A program made the translations under genes and the position numbers. A model generated the notes under the pieces. The model did not search any database and was not told the DNA's origin. It saw only the letters and a list, made by a program, of their open reading frames with translations. DNA of 64,000 nt from Polychytrium aggregatum (lineage: Eukaryota; Chytridiomycota; Chytridiomycetes; Polychytriales). Shown one piece after another: positions 1,931-60,611 of this stretch (within the stretch, counting starts at the first letter, position 1; each line of letters starts with the position of its first letter). The stretch covers positions 434,001 to 498,000 of the forward strand of contig NW_026516230.1 of the NCBI RefSeq assembly GCF_025602895.1, given 5' to 3'.

Positions 1931-3637
1931 TCAACTGAATCCGCCCGAGATAGCGCACTGCAGAACGCCGGTGAGGGCGCCGACAAGGACGGCAGAATAC
2001 GAAGGCATCTTCAAGAACCCGACGCCCAAGAACGCAAATCCAACGACGGTGACGTAAAGCGGGAACTGGGAGATACTCAGAGCCGTGCCAGACTGGCCGT
2101 CGGTAATGGCCTTGGACCAGAGCAAATAGACGGCCGCAAAGACCAGCCCGACGGCCGAGGCGCTCATGCCCCCGAGGATCACCTGGATATAGGTCCGCCG
2201 ACGGAACTGCGTCCACAGGGGGATCAAGGCCGACATCAGAAGCAGCCCTGGCAAGAAGATGCCAAAGAAGGCCAGGAACGAGCCGATGATCGAGCCGCTG
2301 ACGCCGATGCCCAGGCTGCGAAGCGCCAGGCCACCAAGGAAGGCAGAAAAGTTGAATTGCGGGCCTGCATGCATCATGTGGAAGCAGGATGAGCGCACTT
2401 TGGCTGTGGGTCAAGAGCATGGATGGATGGAGATGGATAGAGCATCATCCGGGTACCCCAGTGTCGCTCACTCACCGGGAGTCGAGTTGATGAGGGCGAA
2501 TCCGATCAGAAACTCGCGCTCGTTGAGCCAGCCGACAGAGACGGTATAGTCCTTGAGCAGCGGCACAACGACAGGGCCTCCGCCAAAGATGAGCGAGCCC
2601 ACAAAGTAGAACGTTCCAAAGACGTTCAGGAACAGAGGCACTCCTGCAACCGTCTTGAAGATAATGGCCACCACCAGGAGCAGGATCCACACGGCCAGCA
2701 CCAGCAGCCCGACCCGGCTCGAATACGAGCATTTGACGTTGTTGGAGGAGCCCGAGTCCTGGCCAGAGTTCTGGGTCGAGACGGGGGCCGACGGAGATGG
2801 ACCGGGGGATGAAGATTCCTCATCTGCTGGAGTGCGAGGCTGCGTCGAGCTGGCTGCGTCCTGCGGCATATCGTCGAGATGGAGGCCGTCGCCGGCTGCC
2901 TGGGATCGGGGCTGTGTCCGGCGCTCGGTCCAGAGCTTGTAGCGGTATTCGCAGTATGCCGATACGCTGCCAAGAACCATCAGAGCCGGAAACAGCCAGG
3001 GGGCGCTGTAGTTGATTGCCGCTGCCGCCGAGGCAAATGCCGAGAGCTGCGTCATGCGGTTGGTGCAGACCCTAGTGCCGAGCTTGTAGGCAGCCAGTGC
3101 CGTGAGGCCGATTGCTGACGAGGTCAAGCCGTTCTCGATCTGGATGACGACTGGGGGCAGCTTCTCAGGCAAGGAAGCGACGACGATGGCTGCGATGGTC
3201 ATGAAGAGGGTGACGGGCAGGCTTGGTGCATGCCAGGATGGAGACGGCGGCCGGGGAGCCGGGGAGCCGGGGAGCCGAGAAGATGGTGCAGCATAAGAGG
3301 ATGTTTCGAAGCAGCTTCTCGCCACCGAAATGGAGAGTGGGCAGACGGTTTATACTCACGTCCATGTCAGAAACCCGACCACTCCGGCCAGCGGGCCGCC
3401 CCGAAGCAGGGCAAAGGCAAACGACATCTGGATGCTGGGCGGCCCAGGAAGCACCGAGGCGATGGAAAACAGCTCCGAAAACACATCGGTGCTGACCCAC
3501 TGATACTTGTCGATGAAGTAGTCATGGAAGAGGGCGACGTTGGCCTGGGGTCCGCCAAAGGTGATGAAGCCAAGCGGGAGGTACGTCAAGAAGACGTCGG
3601 CGAGCTTTGGTTTTGCGGATGGGGCGGTCTCGACCAT
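1931..3637 (-). CDS. CHR-family chromate-type ion transporter
   Basis: Three exons on the minus strand (3637-3360, 3221-2476, 2364-1931) join in phase to about 485 aa. The protein has the two-halved build of the CHR (ChrA) family of membrane transporters, which in bacteria and fungi export chromate or exchange it for sulfate. The first half holds TFGGPQANVALFHDYFI and the SVLPGPPSIQM motif; the second half repeats them as FGGGPVVVPLLKDY and NSTPGPQFNFSAFLGG, the latter recreated exactly across the second intron. Many hydrophobic segments are visible, with a polar Ser/Pro/Gln-rich linker in the middle. The chosen Met (MVETAPSA) sits just before the first conserved block; Met codons further upstream are in frame but add unconserved sequence. 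Family confidence is high; the true substrate is not shown by sequence. Confidence 0.9.
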
Positions 3638-4102: not shown

Positions 4103-7100
4103 TCATGCAGCGGAGGGCTCGTCGCCGTCATCCAGGATCGTGACAATGCCCTGGTTGCCGTCAACCCGGACCCGGACCGAGTCCTTGAGCTTGTCATTCT
4201 TGAGCAGGCCGAGGATGCCGGCGACACAGGGAATGCCGTATTCGCGGGCGACCAGTGCTCCGTGCTGGAGGACGCCGCCGACCTCGAGCACCACGGCAGC
4301 GGCGTTGATGAACAGGGGTGTCCAGCCTACGATCAGAAACGATGTTGTCAGAACCAAGCATATACCCGACACTCGCCCCCCCCTCCCCGACACCAGACAC
4401 GGAAGGCTGGAGCCAAACCTGGGTTGGTGCATCGAGCCACCAGAATCTCGCCTGGCAGCAGAGGCTTCTCGTCGGGCGACTCAAGGATCTTGATTCGGCC
4501 CTCGACCACGCCGGCACTCATCGGATAGCCCACCAGGCAGTTCTCGCCGAGATCGGTGCGCTGGAGAGGGATCTCGCGGTAGATGGTGCCGTAGGAGTCC
4601 ATCACCCTCGGAAGTTCGTTGCCCGAGAGCGCAGCCTTGGTCCATTGATTCCAGAGAGCAAGGCGTCGCTCCCGGACCTTGGCCAGATCGATCTCGCCGT
4701 CATGGGGCGACGACTGCAGCAGCCGGGACGATTCGCTTGGCGCGGCATGTATGCGACGCTCGATTTGCTGGACAACGCCGTCGAGATCGAGGATCTCAAA
4801 GTCAAACACCTGCTGGACTGACTCGATCTTGCCGTGCTCGACCAGGAGCTTGCCGACCGCCAAAGCCTCCTGGCGAACACGAGCCACGGCCTTGACGATG
4901 TTGAACTTGTGGGTCTCGCGCAGACCACCAAGCTCCACAATGCGGGTGTAGATGCGGTCGAAGCGGGCCACGTTCCCATTGTGTTTCTTGAGCTCGGCAG
5001 CAAAGTACTCGTATGCCTCCTGACGCTCGGTTTGGCACTGGTTGAACTGCGCGATCGGGTCCTTGCGGGTCGAGTTCATTTGCTGGAACAGCTGGTTGAT
5101 CAGGGTGTGTGAGGATTCGCGGTAACTGTGAACGAGAGCGGCCGGGACCAAGAGACAGAGGAGTCAGTGCTGATGTCCAACAAGAGCGAAGCAAAGGGTG
5201 TTGACGACATGAATCGACGATCAAGTGAGCGAGGATCAACGTGGGGGATGGAGTCCCACAAACGGACACATGCGATGCTATGCCGAGATCGATCATTCAG
5301 CAATGAGGCCATGCCAACAGACGCGCGAATCTTACCGTGGAGTGGAGGCATCCAGCTCCGTGTCGCCGCGATGGCCATAGGTATCCATGAAGGTCTTCCA
5401 CTTCTGGGCAAACTTGGGACCGAGGGCATCTGATCGGCCGGCGAGCGCCTCCTCGAGTTCTGCGGGCTGCATAGACTTGACACGGTCGCCCTCGGCCGCC
5501 AGATCGTGTGCTAGCTGTGCGAGCGACAATCCCATTTCGATGGTGACGTTGCCGGGCAAGCTGCGATCGATTCGCTCGAGATAGGCCTCTGCCATCTCTT
5601 TAGTTTGCTCATCCTCAAGCACGGGCTTCAGGATGGCTCTGAGATCCACCAGGGACTTGCGCCAGATGATCATGGTTGGACCCGAGCTTTGGAGGATCGT
5701 GGTGAAGCCATCGTGCATGATCTGGACGGTCCAGTCGAAGAGAGAGTCTCCGGGCTTGCGTGGCTCGGCCAGTCGATCGCTCAGCTGGGTGCTGATAGTC
5801 GTGCTGATCTCGTGTCTTCGGATGCGTGGAAAGTTGTAGGACCGAACCAGACTGTACATGACTGAGAGCAGAGGCGCATGCAACACGACTCTCAAAGCAA
5901 TCCACAGCTTTGACAAGAGCGTCAGGGGCTCCAAAGCAAGGGCATTTGCATCGAGCGACTGGAAAACCTTGGCGGAAAGCGGGTCGATGATGGCTATGTC
6001 GCGGCTCATGTTTGGGTTGAGGTAACTGTGAACCAAGGAGACATCACCGTAGATACGTCCCGTTTTCGCGTCAAAGATCAATGGAAACGAGTGGAACGGT
6101 TGTGTCCTGGACTCGAGCTGGCCGAGCTTGGCTTTGAGGCAGTTGAAGGCCATCTCAAGCACATTCGTTCCAAAGACGGACATGGGCAGAGGCAGACCCT
6201 GAACAGCCAGAGTGATATCTGTAGTCGATGATTGCAGTGACGATGAGAAAACAACTCATCATCACCCGCTCACGCACAGGAGTAGGCCGCAGTTCTATCG
6301 ATAGCGGACAACACCTACCCCAGAGGAAATGCTGTTTAGGGTTGTTCAAGGATGTGATCATGGGGGAGAGGTCCAACGAGGTCGTCACCGGTCTCGCTTG
6401 CAGGATATACAAGTTATCAGCTTCGATTCCATACTCGATATCCATAGGCCGGCCGTAGAGGCTCTCGATACGCTGGACCTGGGATGCAATCTCAACGACC
6501 TGCAGATGATCGGAACAGAGAGTCAGCGTCGCAGTGGATGCACGACCGTCGAGCACACAGCGCAAGCTTGTGACCGTCTTGACCCCAGACATAGCGGGGC
6601 ACACAGCCACATGATGATTCTACGATAGGATGACAGCGCCGCTGGGCCACAAGCACCATGCCCAATGCAGCACGACCAAGTCTCGGTCATCCTTTGGCAG
6701 ACTCACGACACTCCACCTCGACCACTGCACATCAACGCACGTGGTGATCGGAGAGCGAGAAGGTTTGGGCAGCTTCGGCATCAACAGCGGACTCGGCGGT
6801 TCCGCCGCCCTGCAGTAGCTTGATGACAACGTTCTTGGCGCCGAGAGTTTTCTTGATGATGCGCTTGGTCGATTTGTCGACCACAAACTCGTCTGGGCTG
6901 GCCAATCCTGCGACCACAGTCTCACCCAGACCAAAGTTTGAGTTGATAAAGACCTCGTTGTGCGAGTTGGTCAAGGGGTTGACACTGAAGGCCACGCCGG
7001 CGACGGCACTGTCGACCTGTTGCTGAACCACGATGGCGATTGAGGGCGAGAGTGCCGAGAAGCCATGTGCCAGTTTGTAAAGCACGACACGAACATCAAG

Positions 7101-15791: not shown

Positions 15792-16058
15792 GCCCTGACG
15801 AAGGCCGAGAGGACCGATCGATGCTTCCTGTGAACCATCGCCGGGGCTTAGTGTTCGTATCGCCGGGGCTTGGTGTTCCTATATCCTCGGTCTCGATTAT
15901 GTAACTATCATGTCGCCACTGGGCAATGCAATCTGGAATATCCCATAAGCGATCGCTTGAGCCGCTCGACGAACCACATCCAGAGAGATTCAGGTCCGGC
16001 TCGACTGGCCAGAGACGCACGGCGCTGCTGGCCCACCACCGAGTACACTTTATTCAGA

Positions 16059-16071
16059 AAAAAACGGGACA
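16059..16071 (+). repeat. Left terminal inverted repeat
   Basis: The sequence aaaaaacgggaca is the reverse complement of 19509-19521. Similarity extends weakly outward (16051-16071 against 19529-19509 share 17 of 21 positions). Confidence 0.6.
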
Positions 16072-16102
16072 ATATAGCCGTTTCCATGAACATGTAGTAT
16101 GT

Positions 16103-16125
16103 GCTGTGCTTGCGTCAAGCAAAGC
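16103..16125 (-). other. Stem-loop 3' of the Fanzor gene
   Basis: Pairs: 16103-16105 with 16123-16125, a mismatch 16106/16122, and 16107-16112 with 16116-16121, closing a 3-base loop at 16113-16115. It lies about 19 bases after the stop codon at 16144. Confidence 0.75.
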
Positions 16126-16143
16126 CACAAGAAATAAAACAGA

Positions 16144-18348
16144 TCACTTTGGCAGCCTCCGAGTGAAGACCGCCGGTCGCTCTCCGATCTCCACAATCGA
16201 CCTGCATACTGTGATCATGTTGCGCGCCGCATTGACGTCGCGATTCCACACTGTCCGGCAGCTGGGATTCTTGCAGCTCCTGACAAAGTGGGAATTCGCA
16301 ACACTGGGCGCATCGAGTCCTTCCAACCGAACTAGCTCCAGGCACCTGGAGCACACTTGCGAGGTGTTGAACTCGTTCGTCAAGACTACCTTGACGCTTC
16401 CATGATGGTGATTGGGACGGCGTCGGTGGTGCTCGAATTGCTCAAAGTACTAAGCAAATCGCTGCCTCCGAGGGCTGGATGCATAGCCCTTGCCTTGACG
16501 CCATGATGCATTGCCAAAGGCGATCACCACATCGGTCCGTATCGGGGCGTGCTTCAGGACGGCCTTGCACATCCTGTCGACGGCCACTTGGCGTCTCCTG
16601 TGGCCCGTGAAGCGATGGTGACGGGCCTTCTTGCCAAGGTGGAAGTCGAGCTGCACTCGCAGATCCGGTCGCAGGACATGGGTGAGATGGACCTTGAAGG
16701 CCTCCGAGGACGACACCTTGGGCGAGGGGGTGGTCGACATCCAGGTCTCGATGCTGAGTCGATACTTCATGGTGTTGTGCCACTTGGTGTTGGACGTATG
16801 GCCACACATGTGCTGGTAGTGACCATTCGAGAATGAGACCACCTCGTCTTGGTGGCCCGGTGCTTGGATGACCGCCGTGAAGATGGAGCCGACTCCAGGA
16901 TCGATGCCAATCCAAGTGGTCTTGTCGGGGTCTGGGCTGCCGATGTGGGCCTGGGTACGCTGTTCGGCAGTCGGAGGAGGCTCGATGGTCTCGGTGCGAT
17001 CGGTTCGACGCAGAAACTTGACGAGACTGATGGTGCATCCAATGCCATCGGTGCTGATCTCGTAGTTGAACAGCTTCTTGTCCACGTCCCGCTCTTGGAA
17101 GAGGGAACTACGCAGCTTGAAGCAACTGCGCCAGAGACGATCCTGGTTGTTGATGCCGTCCTCACCTTCTTCCTTGAGCTTGTCCCGGGTGAGTCCAAGA
17201 CGATGTTCGGTGTCAAGGAGTTGCCAGAGAGTGACCGTGTCAATCTTGACATACTTGGCCGTGGCAGTGCACAGAGGAACCATCGTGCACACGGCCGGAG
17301 GAGTGTCGACGGCGAGCTGCTTGAGTGCCCAGTTGATCCTGGCGGCCAGCTTGTTGATCTTGGACTTGGTGGTGCCGAGCTCAGACTTGGCCGTGGTGAA
17401 CCTCTTGTCGTCGGAGGGAATGCCTCTGGCAGTGAGCTCGTCCAGCTTGGCCTGGCGCTGCAGCTCGGTGACTCGGAGGGCGGGCATGTCACAGTCGATC
17501 CACTTGTGGACATTGTCGACCATCTTGTCTCGGGCGAGGATTCCCACATGGTGTGAGAGGCGATGGAGGGCCCGGAAGCGGTCCTGGTCGTTGCTGTACC
17601 GAAACTCGTCCAGGATGTGGCCAAAGTCTGGATAGAGGAACTCGAGATCGGCCTTGGGTGGAGTCTGCCCTGGTTTCTCGAAGAGCTCGAGACAGGCCTC
17701 GATGGCTTCGTGCTTATGCTTGTTGGCTGGGAAGACGGCAGCACAGAAGCGGCGAAGGAGTCGCCAGTAGGCCAGGTCGAGGTGGGTGGTGCAGTTGGTG
17801 GCATAGGCATTGACAGCCAGTGTGAGAAGCTGACTGCGAGCACCATCAGGCAGACGAGGGGCCGGAGGTAGGTCTGCGTGCCGAGTGGTCTGATAGTCGC
17901 GAAAGGAAGCGACCAGATGCTCGTTGTATTTCTCGTTGTCCCCGGTCGGCGAGAGGGCATCGGCCTCGACAATCGTGAAGCATTGGCGAACGAAAGCAGG
18001 GGTGGACTTGGAGATGACAGGGACGGGAAGATCCTGCTCGATGCACCGGAGGATGTACAGGTTGAGCAGCCTGGATGCCTCGAACTGGATCTGGGTCATG
18101 GCCTCGACGGTGGCCTGGATCTTGTCGCGGAGAGCGGGATTGAGACAACAGCCATCCATGGTCTGCTTGAAGCAGCTGAACTGAGGGGCGGATGACCTTC
18201 CATCCACGAGAGGGACGACAGAACTCTTGAGGGGCCGGTATTTGGGACACTTGTTGGTGTTGCAGCGTTCGTGATCGGTACCGTCGCACTTGGGACATCG
18301 CTTGACAGGACCAGATGAGGGACCAGGCTCGGTGGGATCGACATCCAT
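16144..18348 (-). CDS. Fanzor RNA-guided endonuclease (TnpB/Cas12 relative), interrupted by an in-frame TAG
   Basis: One intronless frame runs from ATG 18348 to TGA 16144, with a single TAG at 16450-16452 (codon 633). Numbering from 18348: N-terminal zinc-knuckle-like motif C18-x2-C21-x4-H26-x2-C29-x4-C34; a long helical and recognition region about 60-420; TDG strand 433-435; RuvC-I WIGIDPGVGSIF with D483; VVIAFGNASWRQGKG (607-621) at the place where TnpB has the RuvC-II Glu, which is absent here. After the TAG come the substitute Glu E659 (TNEFNTSQVC), zinc ribbon C666/C669/C692/C697, and RuvC-III D704 in RDVNAARNM. These are the diagnostic Fanzor features, known from SpuFz1 of the chytrid Spizellomyces punctatus. 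Full frame is 733 sense codons. Truncated at codon 632, the product lacks two catalytic acids and the zinc ribbon. Replacing CAG by TAG would explain the stop. Identity is near certain; activity is doubtful. Confidence 0.95.
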
Positions 18349-18509
18349 TGGATCTGCAGAAGCAGTGGTGGTGAGCGACGGAGCAACAGACGACCAAGCA
18401 TGCGTGGGATCAGAATACGAACCAGAGACAGGCTCCGACTGTGACTTGGCTTTCTTGGCCTGGGTGGCCGAGGCTGGCCATTACCGGCACCCTTGCGCTT
18501 CGGAGGCAT
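18349..18509 (-). other. Displaced Fanzor N-terminus with nuclear-localisation-like lysines
   Basis: ATG 18509 opens MPPKRKGAGNG, a basic nuclear-import-like start, but in a different frame from the main Fanzor frame. The main frame stays open upstream of 18348, encodes another basic patch (AKKAKSQ), and ends at a TAA near 18484. A loss of one base around 18480-18490 would join the two. Either the true start is MDVDPTEP at 18348, or a frameshift has cut off the original N-terminus. Confidence 0.55.
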
Positions 18510-18760
18510 GGGGGCAGAGGATGCTGGATGCCTGCCAGTGGTACTGGTCAGAACAGAGACTTCTCTTTATCGTACAATGGCGCAATGATCCGATCAAGGC
18601 GAGATGAGGGAAGAAAGCAGCAGGACGAAGGTGTGGCATTTATACCCGAGAGCAGGAACCCGTCTTTGCGGGCTGGTTGGGGAAGTGACCTGTTCAAAAA
18701 TCGCCGAGAGGTTCAAGCCAGGGATGTGAACGCGAAAACGGCGGCTTGATTGGAGGGAAC

Positions 18761-19450
18761 TCAACCCCAGAAGTGCATCGCTCGCTCAATCAGCCGTGGG
18801 AAGACATCTGGAAGCACCCTCCGAACGGCAGACTCAAACAGGGTCACCATCCCGATCTTGAACCCCTCGGACGCATTCAGCGCTGCCACCTTCCTGTACT
18901 GATGCTTCACAATCCCAAAGAAGTTCTCGATGGGATTGAAGTCGGGCGAGGCAGGTGGGGTGAAGATCACTGACCATTCTCGGCGCTCGATGCAGTCCAG
19001 GACAGCCATTGTCTTGTGCATGCTGACATTGTCCATCACAATCACAGAGTCGTCTAGGAAGCTCGCTCGCTCAAAGAACTCGACCATCGAGTGTGTCTTG
19101 AATGATGTGGGGATGTACATGCGATGCAGCACACCAGAGTGGTTGATGGCAAATGCAGCCGAGACAGACTTGTGTTCCATGTGATTGCGCTGGCGAAGCG
19201 GAGCACCCTTCGGTGAGTACCCGTAGAGCGGAAAGGTGGTTCGTCTGATCCCTGTCTCATCGACAAAAACGAATCGCCGCGGGTCGATGGAGTGGGCCTG
19301 GTCCCTGAACTGTGCCACTCGCTCATCCAGTCGCTTGGACTTGTAGAGGTGTGTTGCCCTCTTGTGTGAGAGACCTGCTCGGTGGATGGCAGTGTGGCAG
19401 AGTGAGAGTGAAACTTTCCTCTGGAGAGTGGTTGTGTGGCGAATGGTCAT
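18761..19450 (-). pseudogene. IS630/Tc1-mariner-type DDE transposase, 5'-truncated
   Basis: A 229-aa frame has the complete DDE catalytic core: FVFVDETGI (first Asp), VIVMDNVSMHK (second Asp) and FTPPASPDFNPIENFFG (Glu), the SPDxNPIE block of IS630/Tc1 enzymes (DDE_3). Only the tail of the DNA-binding domain remains (VSLSLCHTAIHRAGLSHKRA, the recognition-helix end of an HTH). A stop codon lies about 18 codons upstream of the first Met, and no first HTH is found before the tandem array, so the N-terminus is missing or lies across an unseen intron. It sits about 250 bases upstream of the Fanzor start on the same strand, inside the same inverted repeats. It is probably inactive on its own, but the core looks undecayed. 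Confidence 0.88.
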
Positions 19451-19508
19451 GGCCAGCGCGCGATAACATTGGGTAACAAAATATTCGATGAATGGTCAAA
19501 ATCCCGGG

Positions 19509-19521
19509 TGTCCCGTTTTTT
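19509..19521 (-). repeat. Right terminal inverted repeat
   Basis: The sequence tgtcccgtttttt is the inverted partner of 16059-16071. It lies about 60 bases upstream of the first Met of the transposase remnant and about 20 bases before a 20-bp tandem array. Confidence 0.6.
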
Positions 19522-19540
19522 ATTGGATTGCCTGTAAGTA

Positions 19541-19700
19541 AGCAATCGAACAAGCAAGTAAGCAATCGAACAAGCAAGTAAGCAATCGAACAAGCAAGTA
19601 AGCATTCGAACAAGCAAGTAAGCAATCGAACAAGCAAGTAAGCAATCGAACAAGCAAGTAAGCATTCGAACAAGCAAGTAGGCGTTCGAACAAGCAACTC
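19541..19700. repeat. 20-bp tandem repeat, eight copies
   Basis: The unit agcaatcgaacaagcaagta is repeated without spacers. Two copies have agcattcgaa and the last is degenerate (ggcgttcgaacaagcaactc). It begins about 20 bases outside the right inverted repeat of the Fanzor element. Confidence 0.95.
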
Positions 19701-29917: not shown

Positions 29918-31141
29918 TCCGGCGCGGGGCAGATAGATTGAGTGCTTGGAGACAATCAAAGAGACCAGGAACAGCCAAGGGCGAGGATTCGCTCGGCACC
30001 GCAGAACGACAGACACCAGCAAGGTGGAAACAGCCGCGACGGGAAAGAATACTGAGACCGTCGACGTCGAGCCGCGCAGAATCGAAGCGACGGAGCCAAT
30101 GCCGGAGGAAACCAAGTGGAATGGCGGCGTCGGCAATCAGGCGTTGGGAGTGTGCTTGCGATGCGCCCGCCATTTCAGGGACCAAGCCTGGCGGTTGTTT
30201 GGGCATTGCAGTGCAACACGCGGATTGAGGAAAGTTGATCGACGCTGCCCTTGCTGGGACGAACTCGGCTGATGGGATAGACCGAACCTGATCTTGACCC
30301 TGCGTCTTCCTCATTCATTCGAGATGTGTGCTCTTTCCCTGACTTGCAGCGACTGCATCTGCAGCAACTGGCTGGTCCACTTTGTGCCCGCTCGCTCAAT
30401 GCGTGTCTTGGCTCACACTGGGAATCACCACAGGCCAAGCATTGCCAGCCCAAGTCCCACAGAAGAATCGCCAGGATCCCGCCTCGGATCCACGGCAGCG
30501 AGGATCGCCATCCCGCTTTTGGAAGAGGTCTCGGATCCAGCAACATATCGGGTGCATGGATGAATTACTCGCCGAGTGGCTCCGTAACATTGATGCCTTC
30601 TTTGGTGAGATCGGTCCAGCCAAGAGATGTGGCTATCACCAAAGCACAATGGTACGTATTTTTCTTCAATGGCTGTGGAGTCGACTTGATCAAGAGACGA
30701 ACGTTACCAAGCATAATCAGCTAAATACACTTGGCACGAGGCTAGGCAATAGTTGAAACTTGGATTTATGGAGCGAGAGCGAGAGTGGGTGTTTGAGGCG
30801 ACAGACAATGGGCGAGATCAGAAAACAGCCAAGCACACAGCGGCAGACTGGAGTGGTCAATGCCATTCGTCAAATCTCCCTGATGAGGCGGGATCTGTCC
30901 AAATTCGAATCATCTCTTATCACAGAGTGTTTCAGAGTCGCGTCAACAACATGAAACAATCAAAGTAGTGTTTTCTGCGATTTCCGCTTTTGATCAAATG
31001 AAACACCCATTTCTGCCATCAACTGATGGCCGAAATCGGGAGATAAAAACCAAGAATTGTCGCCCTCCCAAGGCGGTTCGGTCCTCATCCCGTTTGGTTT
31101 CGCCAGCAGCTGTCCTCATTCAAACTTCCTTCTGTCGAACC
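29918..31141. other. Intergenic region, no gene recognised
   Basis: This is the divergent spacer between the GT31 gene and the kinase-WD40 gene. Open frames on both strands show no domains. Confidence 0.5.
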
Positions 31142-34100
31142 ATGTCCGATAAACCCTGGTACATCCCCGAGGAAGCCATCACCGACAGGTCTGCCAATCC
31201 ACTCGCAGCCGGCGGGTTCGGTGAGGTTTTCACTGCCTCATACTACGGTGCCCCTGTCGCCGTCAAGCAGCTCTATCGAGGCTACAACCAGAACGAGCTC
31301 GCCGACTTTGGCCGCGAGATTGGCATCTGGCACAGACTCAGTCATCCTCATGTCCTCCAGCTCCTCGGTGCATGCGACACCACCGCCAAGCCCTTCATGG
31401 TCTCGCCGTTCATGCCCAACGGTACTCTCCACAACCACTTTACCACCGCACCCAATCCCCGACCCCTTGGCGAGAAGATCCGCCTCCTCTACGAAATCTC
31501 CTCTGGCATGGCCTATCTCCACGGCAACAACATTGTCCACGGCGACCTCAAGTCCCTCAATGTGCTGCTGGATGGCTCATCCAATGCCATCGTGACCGAC
31601 TTTGGCATGTCCCGCACCAAGCACACCTCGGCCACGGCCAACCGCACCCGCCGCGACCAGCCGATGGGCGGCACCCTTGACTACATGGCTCCAGAGATGC
31701 TCGATGATGACGACCCAGCTGGATCTTCAAAGGCCACCGATGTCTATGCATTCGGCGTCACCATGTACGAGGTCCTCAACGACTGTAATCCCATTTGGTC
31801 AACCAACGACGGTCAGCCAATGCGACCCACGGCTATCGAGCGCCAAGTCGTTAAAGGAAATCGACCCAAGCAGTTCGATGGCATCCCCGACGACATCCGG
31901 GCCCTCATCGAGCGCTGCTGGCACCAGGATCCCACTCAGCGACCCAAGTTTCCCGAGATCCTTGCCATCCTCCGCCAGTCCACTGAGATCTACCACATTC
32001 AAGACCGAGAGCACAGACCGGCTCTAGTTGCTCCTCGCCGTTTGGAGTCGTTCCAGGCAATCCAACAAGCTCTCACTCCTCGTATGTCCTTACTTGCTCC
32101 TCTCACTCCGGAGGCCCCTTCCTCCCCTGCAATCCTGACATCCAAGCCAGTCCCTGTCAGGAACCTGGCAGACGCACAGCATCTGCTCCATGTCGGCGGC
32201 GATGCTGAGTTTGATTCGGACGAAGACGATGACGATGAATTCGATCTCTGGTTTGCGGTCTCCGATGGAAACGACTCTATCAGCTACCAACGAACCTTCA
32301 CCAACGTCTATGCCCAGTCCCGCAATCAGCAGCAGCTCACTCTGTTGATCTCGGCCATCGCCACATCGCAGTCTCCTCTGACCATCCGAATGATTGCTGA
32401 CCTCTTTGGCATCGACATCCGAATCGTCCGTCGGTGCATCAAGGAACTCGGATCCGTTCTCGATCCCGGAAAACTGAACCGCGACAAGCAAAGCGGCACA
32501 GAGACCAAGTCCCAGAAACACAAGTCGATAGTCGCCTACCTGCTCGGAGACGAATCTGCCGACGAGATCTTTCATGCTCTCCCAAGTTTCCACATCACAT
32601 TCGCCTCACGGTGCCTCTCTGTGATCTTATCCCTCGAGCCTGTAGTCAACGTTTGCGATATCTACGACTTTCATGACAATATTCACAACTTTGAAGACCG
32701 AATCAGAGCCAAGATCACACCGACTCTCCGATATAGTGTTGCCCATTGGATCACCCACTTTGTGTGGTGCATTAACGAAGAATCGTTTGACCGACAAATC
32801 TGGAAGCAGTATCGCATCTCAGGCTCGGGCGATTTGCTTGGCCGTCTTTTCGCGAGCCATGTGTTTTTCTGGCTTGAGGTGGGCTCCCTTATCGGCATGA
32901 TTCCGGAACTGATAACCCAGCTCCACTCGCTGGGGGAGACACTCGCCCTGGCCCCTAGCACGGTGGCCGATGACATCACCAAGGAGCTGGTCAAGGACGG
33001 GTATCGATTCATCCGCGAGTTTGCCGATCCGATCATCAAGAGTGCACCACAGGTGTACAACTCGGGGTATGCATTCACACCGAAGGAGACGGCGATCTAC
33101 AGGGCATACGCTGCCCGACTTGAAGTCAAAATCCCCTTCCTGGTTACACTTGGATCCAAGAACCACTGGGATAGCCCAGCGCAATCGACTGAGGGACACT
33201 TGGAGCCAGTTAGCTGGGTTGGTGTCTCCTCAGATGGTACCTGGTTCGCATCGAAGGCGAAGGAAAACATTAAAATTTGGGATGTCGCCACCGGCGGGGT
33301 GAATTTACACCCTTCTGTATATGGAAGCGTTGCCGCATTAACGATCTCGCCAGATGGCAAAACGTTCGTGATTGTCGGAGAAGATTGTACCATCAAACAT
33401 ATTGACGCGCGAACAGGGAAGCTCAAGAAAACGTTTACTAATCATCTCGACGACAAAAAGCCCTCGGCCCTTTCTCCCGATGGCAAGTTTGTGGCTATTG
33501 TGAGTAACAATCCTTATGATCGTCCTTATTACATCAAATTATGGGATACTATCACCTGCAGTTCAAAGGTTACCCTCAAGGGACACACAAACGATGTGAA
33601 CTCCGTGGCCATCTCCCCTGATGGCAAGTGGATTGTCTCTGGTTCGAGTGACAACACTGTCAGGATCTGGGACGCCACCACAGGTCAGGTGAAGCAAACT
33701 CTCGAGGGACATATAAGCTTGGTGATGTACGTGGCCATCTCACCCGATGGCAAGTGGATTGTCTCTGGCTCTTGGGACAAGACCATCAAAGTATGGGATG
33801 CCGCCACTGGCCAGTTGAAACATACCCTCGCTGGACACACAAATCCTGTCCGCTCAGTAGCTATCTCGGCCGACGGCAACACAATTCTCTCTCGTCAATT
33901 TAACGACGACCATCAAATCGTCTGGGTTCATAGTGGTGATGATTTTGTTTGTTCCTCCGATCACCCATCAACTTTTTCGGCAGCAATCATTTCTCCAGTC
34001 ACCCTTACCTCGAATGAATGGGTCGAAATTGACAATCAAGCCCAATGGATCCGCCACGGAATTCATGCAGCCAAATTACCTATATCATATAGTCGTCGCG

Positions 34101-34417
34101 ATTTTGCCCCACGATTGGCCATCCTTTGGACAACTGAGTCCCCGCACTTGCCCACTACTATTCTGGTAAGTTCAATCGCTACCCATCCCTCGCTTGAAAC
34201 CTTCTTTCTAACACTTCAATAATTACAGCCCGTGTATCTCAAAACGCCGGAGATCAAGGCGGCCATCACCAAATATCTTCGAAATTCGACTGACCCCGAG
34301 ATTCAAGCGCGCGCTCCCTCTACTCAAGCCAATTCGACGACGAAAGTCGAGGAAGCCAAACAGATTGAAGTTGAAAAGCTCAAGGGATTATCCAAGTGGC
34401 TTCGCAAGCTAGCCTAA
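31142..34417 (+). CDS. TKL-like protein kinase with NLR-type helical region and WD40 repeats
   Basis: Two exons, 31142-34165 and 34229-34417, give 1070 aa. Residues about 1-340 are a protein kinase: glycine loop AGGFGEVF, VAVK42, HGDLKSLN (D135, N140), DFG 153-155, APE 183-185, and RCWHQDPTQRP near the end, as in TKL kinases. After an acidic linker, residues about 430-600 resemble the winged-helix and helical part that follows the ATPase in fungal NACHT-WD40 (NLR-like) proteins (LLISAIATSQSPLTIRMIA, DLFGIDIRIVRRCIKELGSV, SFHITFASRCLSV), but no Walker A P-loop is visible. WD40 units follow from about 690 to 930 (VAISPDGKWIVSGSSDNTVRIWD and a near-identical SWDKTIKVWD copy). The last exon adds a Lys/Glu-rich tail. 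The start follows the last upstream in-frame Met and opens directly into the kinase. A signalling or immune-type sensor role is inference. Confidence 0.85.
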
Positions 34418-59472: not shown

Positions 59473-60611
59473 AACGCAGAGCGATTGGGCAATAGAGGAT
59501 ACGTAGAGAATAGACCGCTATTTCCCTCAAACGCATGGACGGACTGCGGGCCGATCTGCGACGAGATCAGTAGTCGGGTCACATCGCATTGGATCAGGAC
59601 CAGATCAAGTCAGATCAGATCACATCACATCGCATCAGATCGGATCTGGTGGCAGATTGCTTTCGTTTTCATCGTAGTTTTTAGGGGAGGGGGGGGGCCG
59701 TGGAGGAAGAGCATCCCAATTGAGTCCGCTCCAGACGCCCCGCAAGCGAGGCATCCCAGAGCGACTTGTGTATTGCACTTCACAGGTGGCTGTCCACGCG
59801 CCTGGTTTCAAACCCCCAAGAGACCTTGCGGTCCCAAGGATAAGAAAAAAAGGGGGTCGGCTTGCTGGTGACGACGTCGACCCATACGGCCTTGCTCCTC
59901 TCGAGCTACTAGGACTTTTTGGGAGACTGCCAAAGGTCGTGAGAAGCGCCTTCCTCCCCCGCGAGGGGACGGGGAAGAAAGAGCTTCCGTATGTTTGCCT
60001 TTAAACACAAGCTTCCCTCCAAGGCCCCCCGGCGGCCAGAGAGGAGCGACCAGGCCAGGGCGCTTATATAGCGGCGGCAAAGCAGGCGCGTGGCTTGGCG
60101 ATCGGCTCAGCCACACGCATATGAATCAGGTGGGCGCACGGGGAATGCAGGCGAGGCGCGAGCGAGATCGGCCTCGTCTGGTCTCGTCTCGTCTCGCGTC
60201 TCGGATTCATGTCGGATCAGCCTGAGCCATGAAGCTCTATTGGAGTGTGCTGGTGTGCTGGTGTGGAGGGTCAAGAAGCAAATGGACAAAATGCGGGAGA
60301 TATTGGAAACAAGAGACGGTCGGTGCCAAGTGGGAGCGGAGCGGTGAGTGGGCGGAAATGACAGCCAGAGAGATGTTGTCGATGCCAGAAAGGTGCTCCG
60401 GGACGGCCTGGGGTCTCAAAGGGCTCATAAATTCCATCGAGACGACGAGTACAGGGACCGGGGACGCTGGAAATCGCGATGGCGATGGCGATAGCGATAG
60501 CGGAAGCCACGTCAGAGGTGAATCCCAGCACGAGGCTGCGAAGGTCGCTCCCGCCTTCCATTTGGGCCCTATGGCCATGGCAACGATACAGCCCTCCGTC
60601 ATTCAGTAGGC
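59473..60611. other. Intergenic region, no gene recognised
   Basis: Convergent spacer. It has a GATCA-type degenerate repeat near 59600-59650 and a short gcgatg/gcgata repeat near 60478-60500. Confidence 0.5.

Follow-up and report, generated by a model that had tools for sequence, protein, structure and literature searches.

The window analyzed here, a stretch of 64,000 nucleotides from the chytrid Polychytrium aggregatum (contig NW_026516230.1, positions 434,001 to 498,000 of the forward strand), contains at positions 16044-19536 of its minus strand a 3.5-kb copy of a Tc1/mariner transposable element, which reads from 19536 to 16044 and carries the remnants of a transposase gene and, downstream of it, of a gene for a Fanzor1 protein, a member of the eukaryotic TnpB-like RNA-guided nucleases. 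That the locus represents a Fanzor1 gene inside a Tc1/mariner element we consider nearly certain. The exact ends of the element were set by comparing the window copy with 20 other loci. TA is present at both ends and terminal inverted repeats (TIRs) are recognizable in all 21 copies, the 5′ tip being altered in some of them. The inverted repeats of the window element are imperfect and 28 bp in length: the 5′ repeat (TACAGGCAATCCAATAAAAAACGGGACA; 19509-19536, minus strand), the type of which was counted throughout the genome by an exact 32-bp pattern, starts with the TA duplication, and the 3′ repeat (TGTCCCGTTTTTTTCTGAATAAAGTGTA; 16044-16071, minus strand) contains an AATAAA and has the TA duplication at its end. 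A full-length copy of the element (L024) measures about 3745 bp.

The Fanzor1 gene remnant spans positions 16144-18509 (minus strand). A preliminary description of this DNA had placed a Fanzor gene at 16144-18348 and had given no strand; this segment is the main part of the gene, and all of the motifs then listed are present in one frame of its minus strand, but two lesions went unmentioned. An in-frame stop codon (16450-16452, minus strand) breaks the Fanzor frame, so that 632 open codons are followed by the stop and about 100 more codons, and the true start of the family (MPPKRKG...), located at 18509, sits in another frame of the window copy as the consequence of a frameshift. The window Fanzor is a dead copy, as this stop codon and frameshift attest, while intact copies encode a protein of 790 amino acids. 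A functional window gene was accordingly rejected, as was a gene on the plus strand, where the corresponding frame contains seven stops.

Despite its decay, the remnant retains the sequence marks of the family on the minus strand (residue numbers follow the preliminary description). They comprise an N-terminal zinc-knuckle-like motif (C-x2-C-x4-H-x7-C; 18247-18297), the TDG motif of the Fanzor1 WED domain (residues 433-435; 17044-17052), which is found in 20 of the 21 copies with a single TNG variant, the RuvC-I motif GIDPGVG with the catalytic Asp D483 (16888-16908), present in 21 of 21 copies, an FGNAS segment, the relocated RuvC glutamate E659 (16372-16374) in NEFNTSQVC, six residues ahead of the zinc ribbon, the C4 zinc ribbon that forms the core of the TNB domain (C666 to C697; 16258-16353; PF07282), and the third RuvC residue D704 within RDVNAARNM (16237-16239), the RD of which is kept in 21 of 21 copies. 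E659, the zinc ribbon and D704 lie beyond the stop, since it follows residue 632. The catalytic residues D, E and D are retained in 21, 20 and 21 of the 21 copies, respectively, and in an intact copy the alternative glutamate is E715, followed by F-N-T-S-Q-V and then by C722. A DPG in place of the D-hydrophobic-G of RuvC-I together with an alternative glutamate six residues before the zinc finger has been described as the fingerprint of Fanzor proteins, and TDG as a mark of Fanzor1 (PMC10711439, as far as it was available to us); DPG, the alternative Glu, TDG, and a C4 ribbon followed by RD are all found here. The zinc knuckle had been taken as a sign of a possible new lineage; the motif is real, but it recurs with equal spacing in a second type of Fanzor encoded by the same genome, which also has the TDG motif, and a separate lineage is not established by it.

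Profile searches, which the preliminary description had proposed as a check, support the membership well. The window piece beyond the stop matches the Pfam TNB model PF07282 with 44.1 bits (E 2.2e-11; cut-off 26.3), and the Fanzor family does so with 33.6 bits. A profile built from both Fanzor types and compared with the PDB retrieves SpuFz1 (E 0.0011) and, weakly, GtFz1 (E 0.13), besides TranC (E 0.19), and the relocated Glu and the RD/RN columns of the two-type profile align with both Fanzor structures. The relation to SpuFz1, with which the Fanzor studied here shares a C-terminal RD..NM..RS....RP.VF match, is significant by this profile alone; a 10-copy profile lacking the second type yields E 0.087. 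With the 632-residue piece as the phmmer query against the PDB, the sole match was an antibody (E 1.4), and the NCBIfam model guided_TnpB gives E 2.7e-5 but 23.6 bits, far under its cut-off of 100. Because of the PF07282 match and the 70 Fanzor places in the genome (see below), chance can be excluded as the origin of the Fanzor motifs. Assignment to Fanzor2/IS607 was rejected, because the gene that accompanies the Fanzor encodes a DDE transposase and not a serine recombinase. No relatives were confirmed in viral contigs or in prokaryote genome contigs.

The transposase remnant (18761-19450, minus strand; upstream of the Fanzor gene) belongs to the DDE_3/IS630 group with a DD34E triad, and it has lost about 81 codons in frame, those of the helix-turn-helix among them. 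The identical deletion is present in two copies residing at other sites (L029 and L030) and in L039, the duplicate of the window element. In the intact 310-residue transposase of L024 (DDE_3 E 5.7e-22; IS630 119 bits against a cut-off of 100), the triad is formed by D145, D221 and E256.

The preliminary description had also advised a search for further copies in the same genome, and these are plentiful. In the 64.68-Mb assembly (418 contigs), the Fanzor gene occupies at least 70 places including the window (70 scored of 807 candidates), mostly with open frames; the other 69 are 92-95% identical to it, and a stop inside the 632-residue stretch occurs in seven of the 70. The transposase is found at no fewer than 150 places (150 scored of 379 candidates). 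Counts of exact ends, which include duplicated contigs, amount to 217 for the 5′ end (206 with the CAGGC tip of the type described here and 11 with a CAGCC tip) and to 241 for the 3′ end of this type. Among the matches listed are nine miniature elements (284-386 bp), which have retained both ends and offer no room for the genes; in one of them (C1:868242), the last 97 bp are unchanged. They resemble the "ghost" loci of Spizellomyces punctatus, SPu-1 copies that are reported to retain the 3′ RNA region without the protein (PMC10432273).

The TNB domain extends beyond this family: at least 150 places in the genome, all over the cut-off, were recorded (150 scored of 663 candidates), pointing to more TNB groups. 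Those on C124, C379, C279, C29 and other contigs reach higher scores (70.5 and 61 bits), several of them with open frames of 447-477 codons and some in pairs of inverse orientation separated by about 5 kb; they would represent further Fanzor/TnpB-like families.

Two elements, L041 and L042, combine a transposase from the same pool with the second Fanzor. Their transposases are on average 95.4% and 95.3% identical to those of the main type, which itself has an internal identity of 95.6%, and, of the bases exclusive to both, a single one lies upstream of the gene's final 40 bp and four more lie within them. Directly after the transposase stop codon, both switch to a different Fanzor of 854 (L041) and 850 (L042) amino acids, which is 39-40% identical to the main type by blastp (42% in the multiple alignment) and scores 38.6 and 39.2 bits with the TNB model. 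The 3′ end differs as well (...GACTGTA in L041 and six others); the stretch of L042 that was examined did not contain the expected 3′ end. A different Fanzor and a different 3′ end behind the same transposase indicate that the two were exchanged as one cassette, and, judged from these alignments, the exchange is a recent one of Fanzor for Fanzor. Among the elements of the second cassette, four (L066-L069) share a related 3′ flank with gaps (AGYATCTYG..., with TTGAGTATTTCGACAG in parts), which may be either a longer element end or the result of repeated landing in one repeat family. In L036 (positions 6300-6800), a fragment of the second cassette directly adjoins a main-type 3′ end and is 88% identical to the 3′ flank of L024 over 175 bp, as would be seen with nested or adjacent insertions.

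A guide RNA encoded at the 3′ end had been brought into the preliminary description from what is known of other Fanzors, and here the support for it is indirect. The last 87 nt of the element (16044-16130, minus strand), the boundary being our own placement, are predicted to form the scaffold of the guide RNA (fold z −2.5, with 1 of 200 shuffles as good), and the 20 nt of flank read out beyond the 3′ end (CTCGGTGGTGGGCCAGCAGC; 16024-16043, minus strand) would serve as the guide, by extension from published Fanzor systems (PMC10432273, PMC10711439, both consulted in part). In the predicted minimum-energy fold, the terminal TA pairs within the closing stem, as is described for Fanzor1 guide RNAs in the accessible part of PMC10711439. 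Synonymous diversity falls from 0.091 to 0.038 in the last 90 codons of the Fanzor gene (a value as low is reached in 13 of 701 overlapping windows), and 40 of 41 matches, among them that of the window itself, agree throughout the last 97-98 bp of the element (best 40 of 442 candidates). The nine ghost-like elements that retain both ends point the same way. Covariation in the 3′ hairpin is not claimed, as the two variants that the copies contain there are non-compensatory. Taken together, these data are suggestive of the 3′ end of the element as a putative source of the guide RNA.

The most telling property of the family lies just outside its 5′ end. The base preceding the TA at the 5′ junction, T19537 in the window, is a T at every one of the 30 distinct sites of the main cassette that were sequenced, so that the junction reads TTA (19535-19537, minus strand); in the window, the background frequency of T before TA is 11.7%. 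These 30 sites consist of 19 (L021-L040, with the window, and L044/L045), to which L051-L063 add 11, the remaining two of these 13 being second copies of sites already known. At the four readable sites of the second cassette, assigned by sequence in two cases and by the position of the TNB domain in the other two, the base is T, G, A and T, and a fifth site is degenerate. In the genome-wide counts, 198 ends with the CAGGC tip have a T and eight have another base, against five and six for the CAGCC tip (Fisher p 8.7e-6, with duplicated contigs included and the cassette type read from the 5′ tip alone). Since both cassettes draw on one pool of transposases, it is the cassette, or its ends, with which the T is associated, and not the transposase. 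In SPu-1, the element that encodes SpuFz1 in S. punctatus, a fixed CA before the 5′ end gives together with TA the assayed target-adjacent motif (TAM) CATA, and the assayed TAM of GtFz1 from Guillardia theta, TTAAN, resembles TTA (PMC10432273, PMC11423790; both as far as they could be consulted); by this parallel, TTA is the predicted TAM of the Fanzor studied here.

The same data bear on another explanation, namely that the Fanzor is a passenger and that the T stems either from the transposase acting on the terminal repeats of each cassette (CAGGC versus CAGCC tips) or from element DNA; we view this as possible but as the less probable account. The T is confounded with the type of terminal repeat as well as with the type of Fanzor, and the share of non-T copies (eight of 206, 4%) roughly matches the one expected from ordinary decay of a T that belonged to the element. 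Against this stands the low background of T before TA, and, in addition, the fate of the T where the tip of the element has been lost. Three sites have, in place of the outermost bases of the 5′ repeat, a stretch of 7-8 bp that is copied from the target and starts with TA (L021/L037, TATCCCGC; L034/L043, TAAGAGC; L061/L080, TATAGTCA), with two further possible cases (L059/L078, TACCGGC; L040, TAACA); the T is present at all five, which argues that it is target DNA. At odds with a pure passenger is also the ratio of amino-acid-changing to silent polymorphism per site (pN/pS) in the Fanzor gene, which amounts to 0.34 among singletons and to 0.30 among shared variants, with the reservation that the 20 non-window copies were chosen from the top Fanzor scores and are biased to intact frames and low pN/pS. 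For the transposase, the values in the 21 copies are 0.42 and 0.23, respectively; silent variants per site thus outnumber amino-acid-changing ones in both genes. The target-copy junctions imply a duplication of 7-8 bp and not of 2 bp, and may represent aberrant insertions or junctions of break repair. Furthermore, the 3′ flank starts with CAG at five of 28 distinct readable sites (L024, L026, L028, L031, L063/L082); this echoes the 5′ repeat after TA (TACAG) and could be due either to preferred targets or to a past exchange of tips.

We regard it as probable that the window holds a decayed copy of an abundant Tc1/mariner family with a DD34E transposase and a Fanzor1, the working copies of which combine guided retention or homing with shuffling by recombination or conversion. 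In such a copy, the transposase would insert the element at a TA; the last ~90 nt of the element and the adjoining 3′ flank would yield the guide RNA; the Fanzor would cut the matching empty site (TTA plus flank) on the sister or homologous chromosome; and repair of the cut empty site would copy the element back. The filled site would be spared because the guide match there is preceded by the end of the element, which is GTA in 21 of 21 copies, and not by TTA. Copies and whole Fanzor cassettes would, in addition, be shuffled via ectopic recombination or gene conversion. A role of the Fanzor as an RNA-guided retention factor, viewed by itself, is drawn from the analogy with known systems and from the cassette-specific TTA, and on balance we lean towards it.

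Several observations weigh against this proposal. The conserved T could be a property of the ends of the cassette, or the transposase could select it in a TIR-dependent manner. The 3′ end folds with modest scores, z −1.8 for 106 nt and −2.5 for the trimmed 87 nt that we chose ourselves, and in the second cassette the fold does not reach significance (z −1.1 and −1.6). L024 has a lysine at the position of the relocated Glu, and the choice of copies by Fanzor score tempers the pN/pS values given above. No spanning empty site was recovered for any of 16 insertion sites (of 18 joined sites; 40 of 406 candidates scored), and for that reason it is from filled sites that we deduce both the TA duplication and TTA as the target. 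A second assembly copy exists at nine of the 16 sites, and all nine are occupied, the one on C124 being judged by its 3′ side alone.

The copies of the family bear the marks of extensive shuffling. Pairwise identities of about 95-97% form a star-like pattern, the top two pairs being L025 with L037 and with L031 (98%; all on C8). In 18 copies that occupy independent sites, linkage disequilibrium (r2) drops from 0.72 at 1-5 bp to 0.32 at 6-14 bp, 0.08 at 15-59 bp and 0.05-0.06 beyond, the permuted mean in 21 copies being 0.050. Incompatible site pairs within 100 bp have a frequency of 0.527 versus 0.566 after permutation, with one of 300 permutations as low; near sites are slightly more compatible than permuted ones. 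Five pairs of elements that occupy the same site in two assembly copies were compared. In three same-site pairs, 2.6-2.8 kb of flank on each side is 99.6-100% identical, and the elements differ at 108-119 sites over 3.0-3.6 kb. In two further pairs, for which 0.1-0.2 kb of flank was compared, L034 and L043 are identical save for one 1.9-kb block with 75 substitutions, and L044 and L045 are one substitution apart. The empty-site search implied six additional same-site partners. L037 equals L025, which lies about 10 kb away at another site, exactly over 2.4 kb; over its initial bases and its final 493 bp it agrees with L021, its partner at the same site, and its columns 2413-3255 differ from both. 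As judged by these identities, L037 carries a conversion tract with an identified donor, L025.

Mosaics and differing same-site interiors could also arise as an artefact of assembly, if repeat interiors were filled or polished with reads from other copies and the ends were anchored in unique flanks. Four of the five compared same-site pairs have identical flanks and ends and differing interiors, just as mis-filled repeats would show, and near-identical contigs (C26/C201 and C8/C135) testify to redundant regions in the assembly. However, the identical end stretches range from 35 to 1189 bp and betray no fixed anchor length, the 2.4-kb block of L037 is exactly that of its neighbor L025, the members of one same-site pair are set apart by no more than one substitution, linkage is lost over tens of bases, a distance shorter than usual reads, and 19 of the 21 copies have a Fanzor frame without stops. 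We consider an artefact of this kind possible, though less probable than not. Ectopic conversion is common among repeats. Real gene conversion that is general to dispersed repeats of this host and independent of the Fanzor would agree with this, and with the finding that linkage decays similarly in the transposase part and in the Fanzor part; we hold the chances of this explanation to be about even. That the Fanzor itself drives the shuffling appears unlikely to us. Our literature searches returned no work joining Fanzor to linkage disequilibrium and, among the titles listed, none on gene conversion in Fanzor families.

Mariner elements with a Fanzor1 were already known: PGv-1 and PUl-1 (Bao and Jurka 2013, PMC3627910) resemble the family studied here in their Mariner transposase, Fanzor1, TA duplications and TIRs. 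According to the part of that report available to us, four related mariners including PGv-1 have the transposase half in common (~78%) and differ in the 3′ half, where two carry an endonuclease and a methyltransferase instead of a Fanzor; all four are single-copy. The present family, in contrast, has about 200 copies in one cellular genome, and its transposases, 95% alike, are combined in the exchanged 3′ half with two different Fanzors. SPu-1 likewise places a Fanzor1 in a TA-flanked element with TIRs, but its repeats are described with no transposase inside and with fewer full-length Fanzors (19) than found here (PMC10432273, in the sections available). For GtFz1, also a Fanzor1, the consulted parts of the literature give no clear association with a transposase, unlike the situation here, and its third catalytic residue is Asn where the present family has Asp (PMC10432273, PMC11423790). 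The proposed logic follows that of TnpB in IS200/IS605 retention and gene drive, in which the guide derives from the insertion site and element-free copies are cut; that system, as outlined in PMC11870625, concerns a bacterial insertion sequence in plasmids, whereas a eukaryotic element of the double-strand cut-and-paste type is considered here, for which a drive would be an extrapolation. As far as our searches show, the high-copy two-gene family, the Fanzor-for-Fanzor exchange and the cassette-specific insertion motif are new; the pairing of transposase and Fanzor is not.

The surroundings of the element contain features of their own. The window copy was inserted at the edge of a 20-bp minisatellite of host DNA (19537-19697, without strand; 8.1 copies with 96% matches; the array was called from 19536). 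Contig C26, which has the same minisatellite flank, is a near-identical duplicate of the contig of the window (C201): the two match at 100% over 8 kb (8000 versus 8023 bp), and C26 may be a second haplotype or a segmental duplication. The flanks of C135 and C8 are 99.6-99.9% identical and allow the same two explanations. At 59702-60020 (minus strand), the window contains a gene for the nuclear RNase P RNA (39.4 bits, Rfam); nothing besides it was found by Rfam over the window at gathering thresholds, and ARAGORN found no tRNA in the window. A protein kinase domain is joined to a WD40 propeller in one open frame at 30887-34219 (plus strand). Reverse-transcriptase frames of near-equal score, many of about 1284 codons, are clustered on C115, C201 (7-55 kb), C366 (232-260 kb), C374 and other contigs, and are perhaps centromeric retroelements; as most of the listed copies score alike, these RVT_1 copies looked unsuitable as a control for linkage.

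The biological role of Fanzor proteins has been stated to be unknown (PMC10432273, as far as consulted). The P. aggregatum family unites a transposase and a Fanzor in about 200 copies, with intact frames, ghosts and two Fanzors with different site motifs, and thereby provides a comparison made by nature: should the motif at the insertion site go with the Fanzor, then the survival of insertions would be shaped by the Fanzor. In its boldest form, the family would be a natural RNA-guided drive, in which the Fanzor cassette decides which insertions persist, because only empty sites with TTA can be re-cut and refilled, and in which the breaks keep some 200 copies recombining like a sexual population that trades cassettes on one transposase backbone; we offer this as a speculation of rather low probability. 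The computed motif (TTA) and the boundary of the guide are predictions open to a single cleavage assay, and the insertion sites and shuffled sequences of the family hint at how a Fanzor might help such elements to persist.

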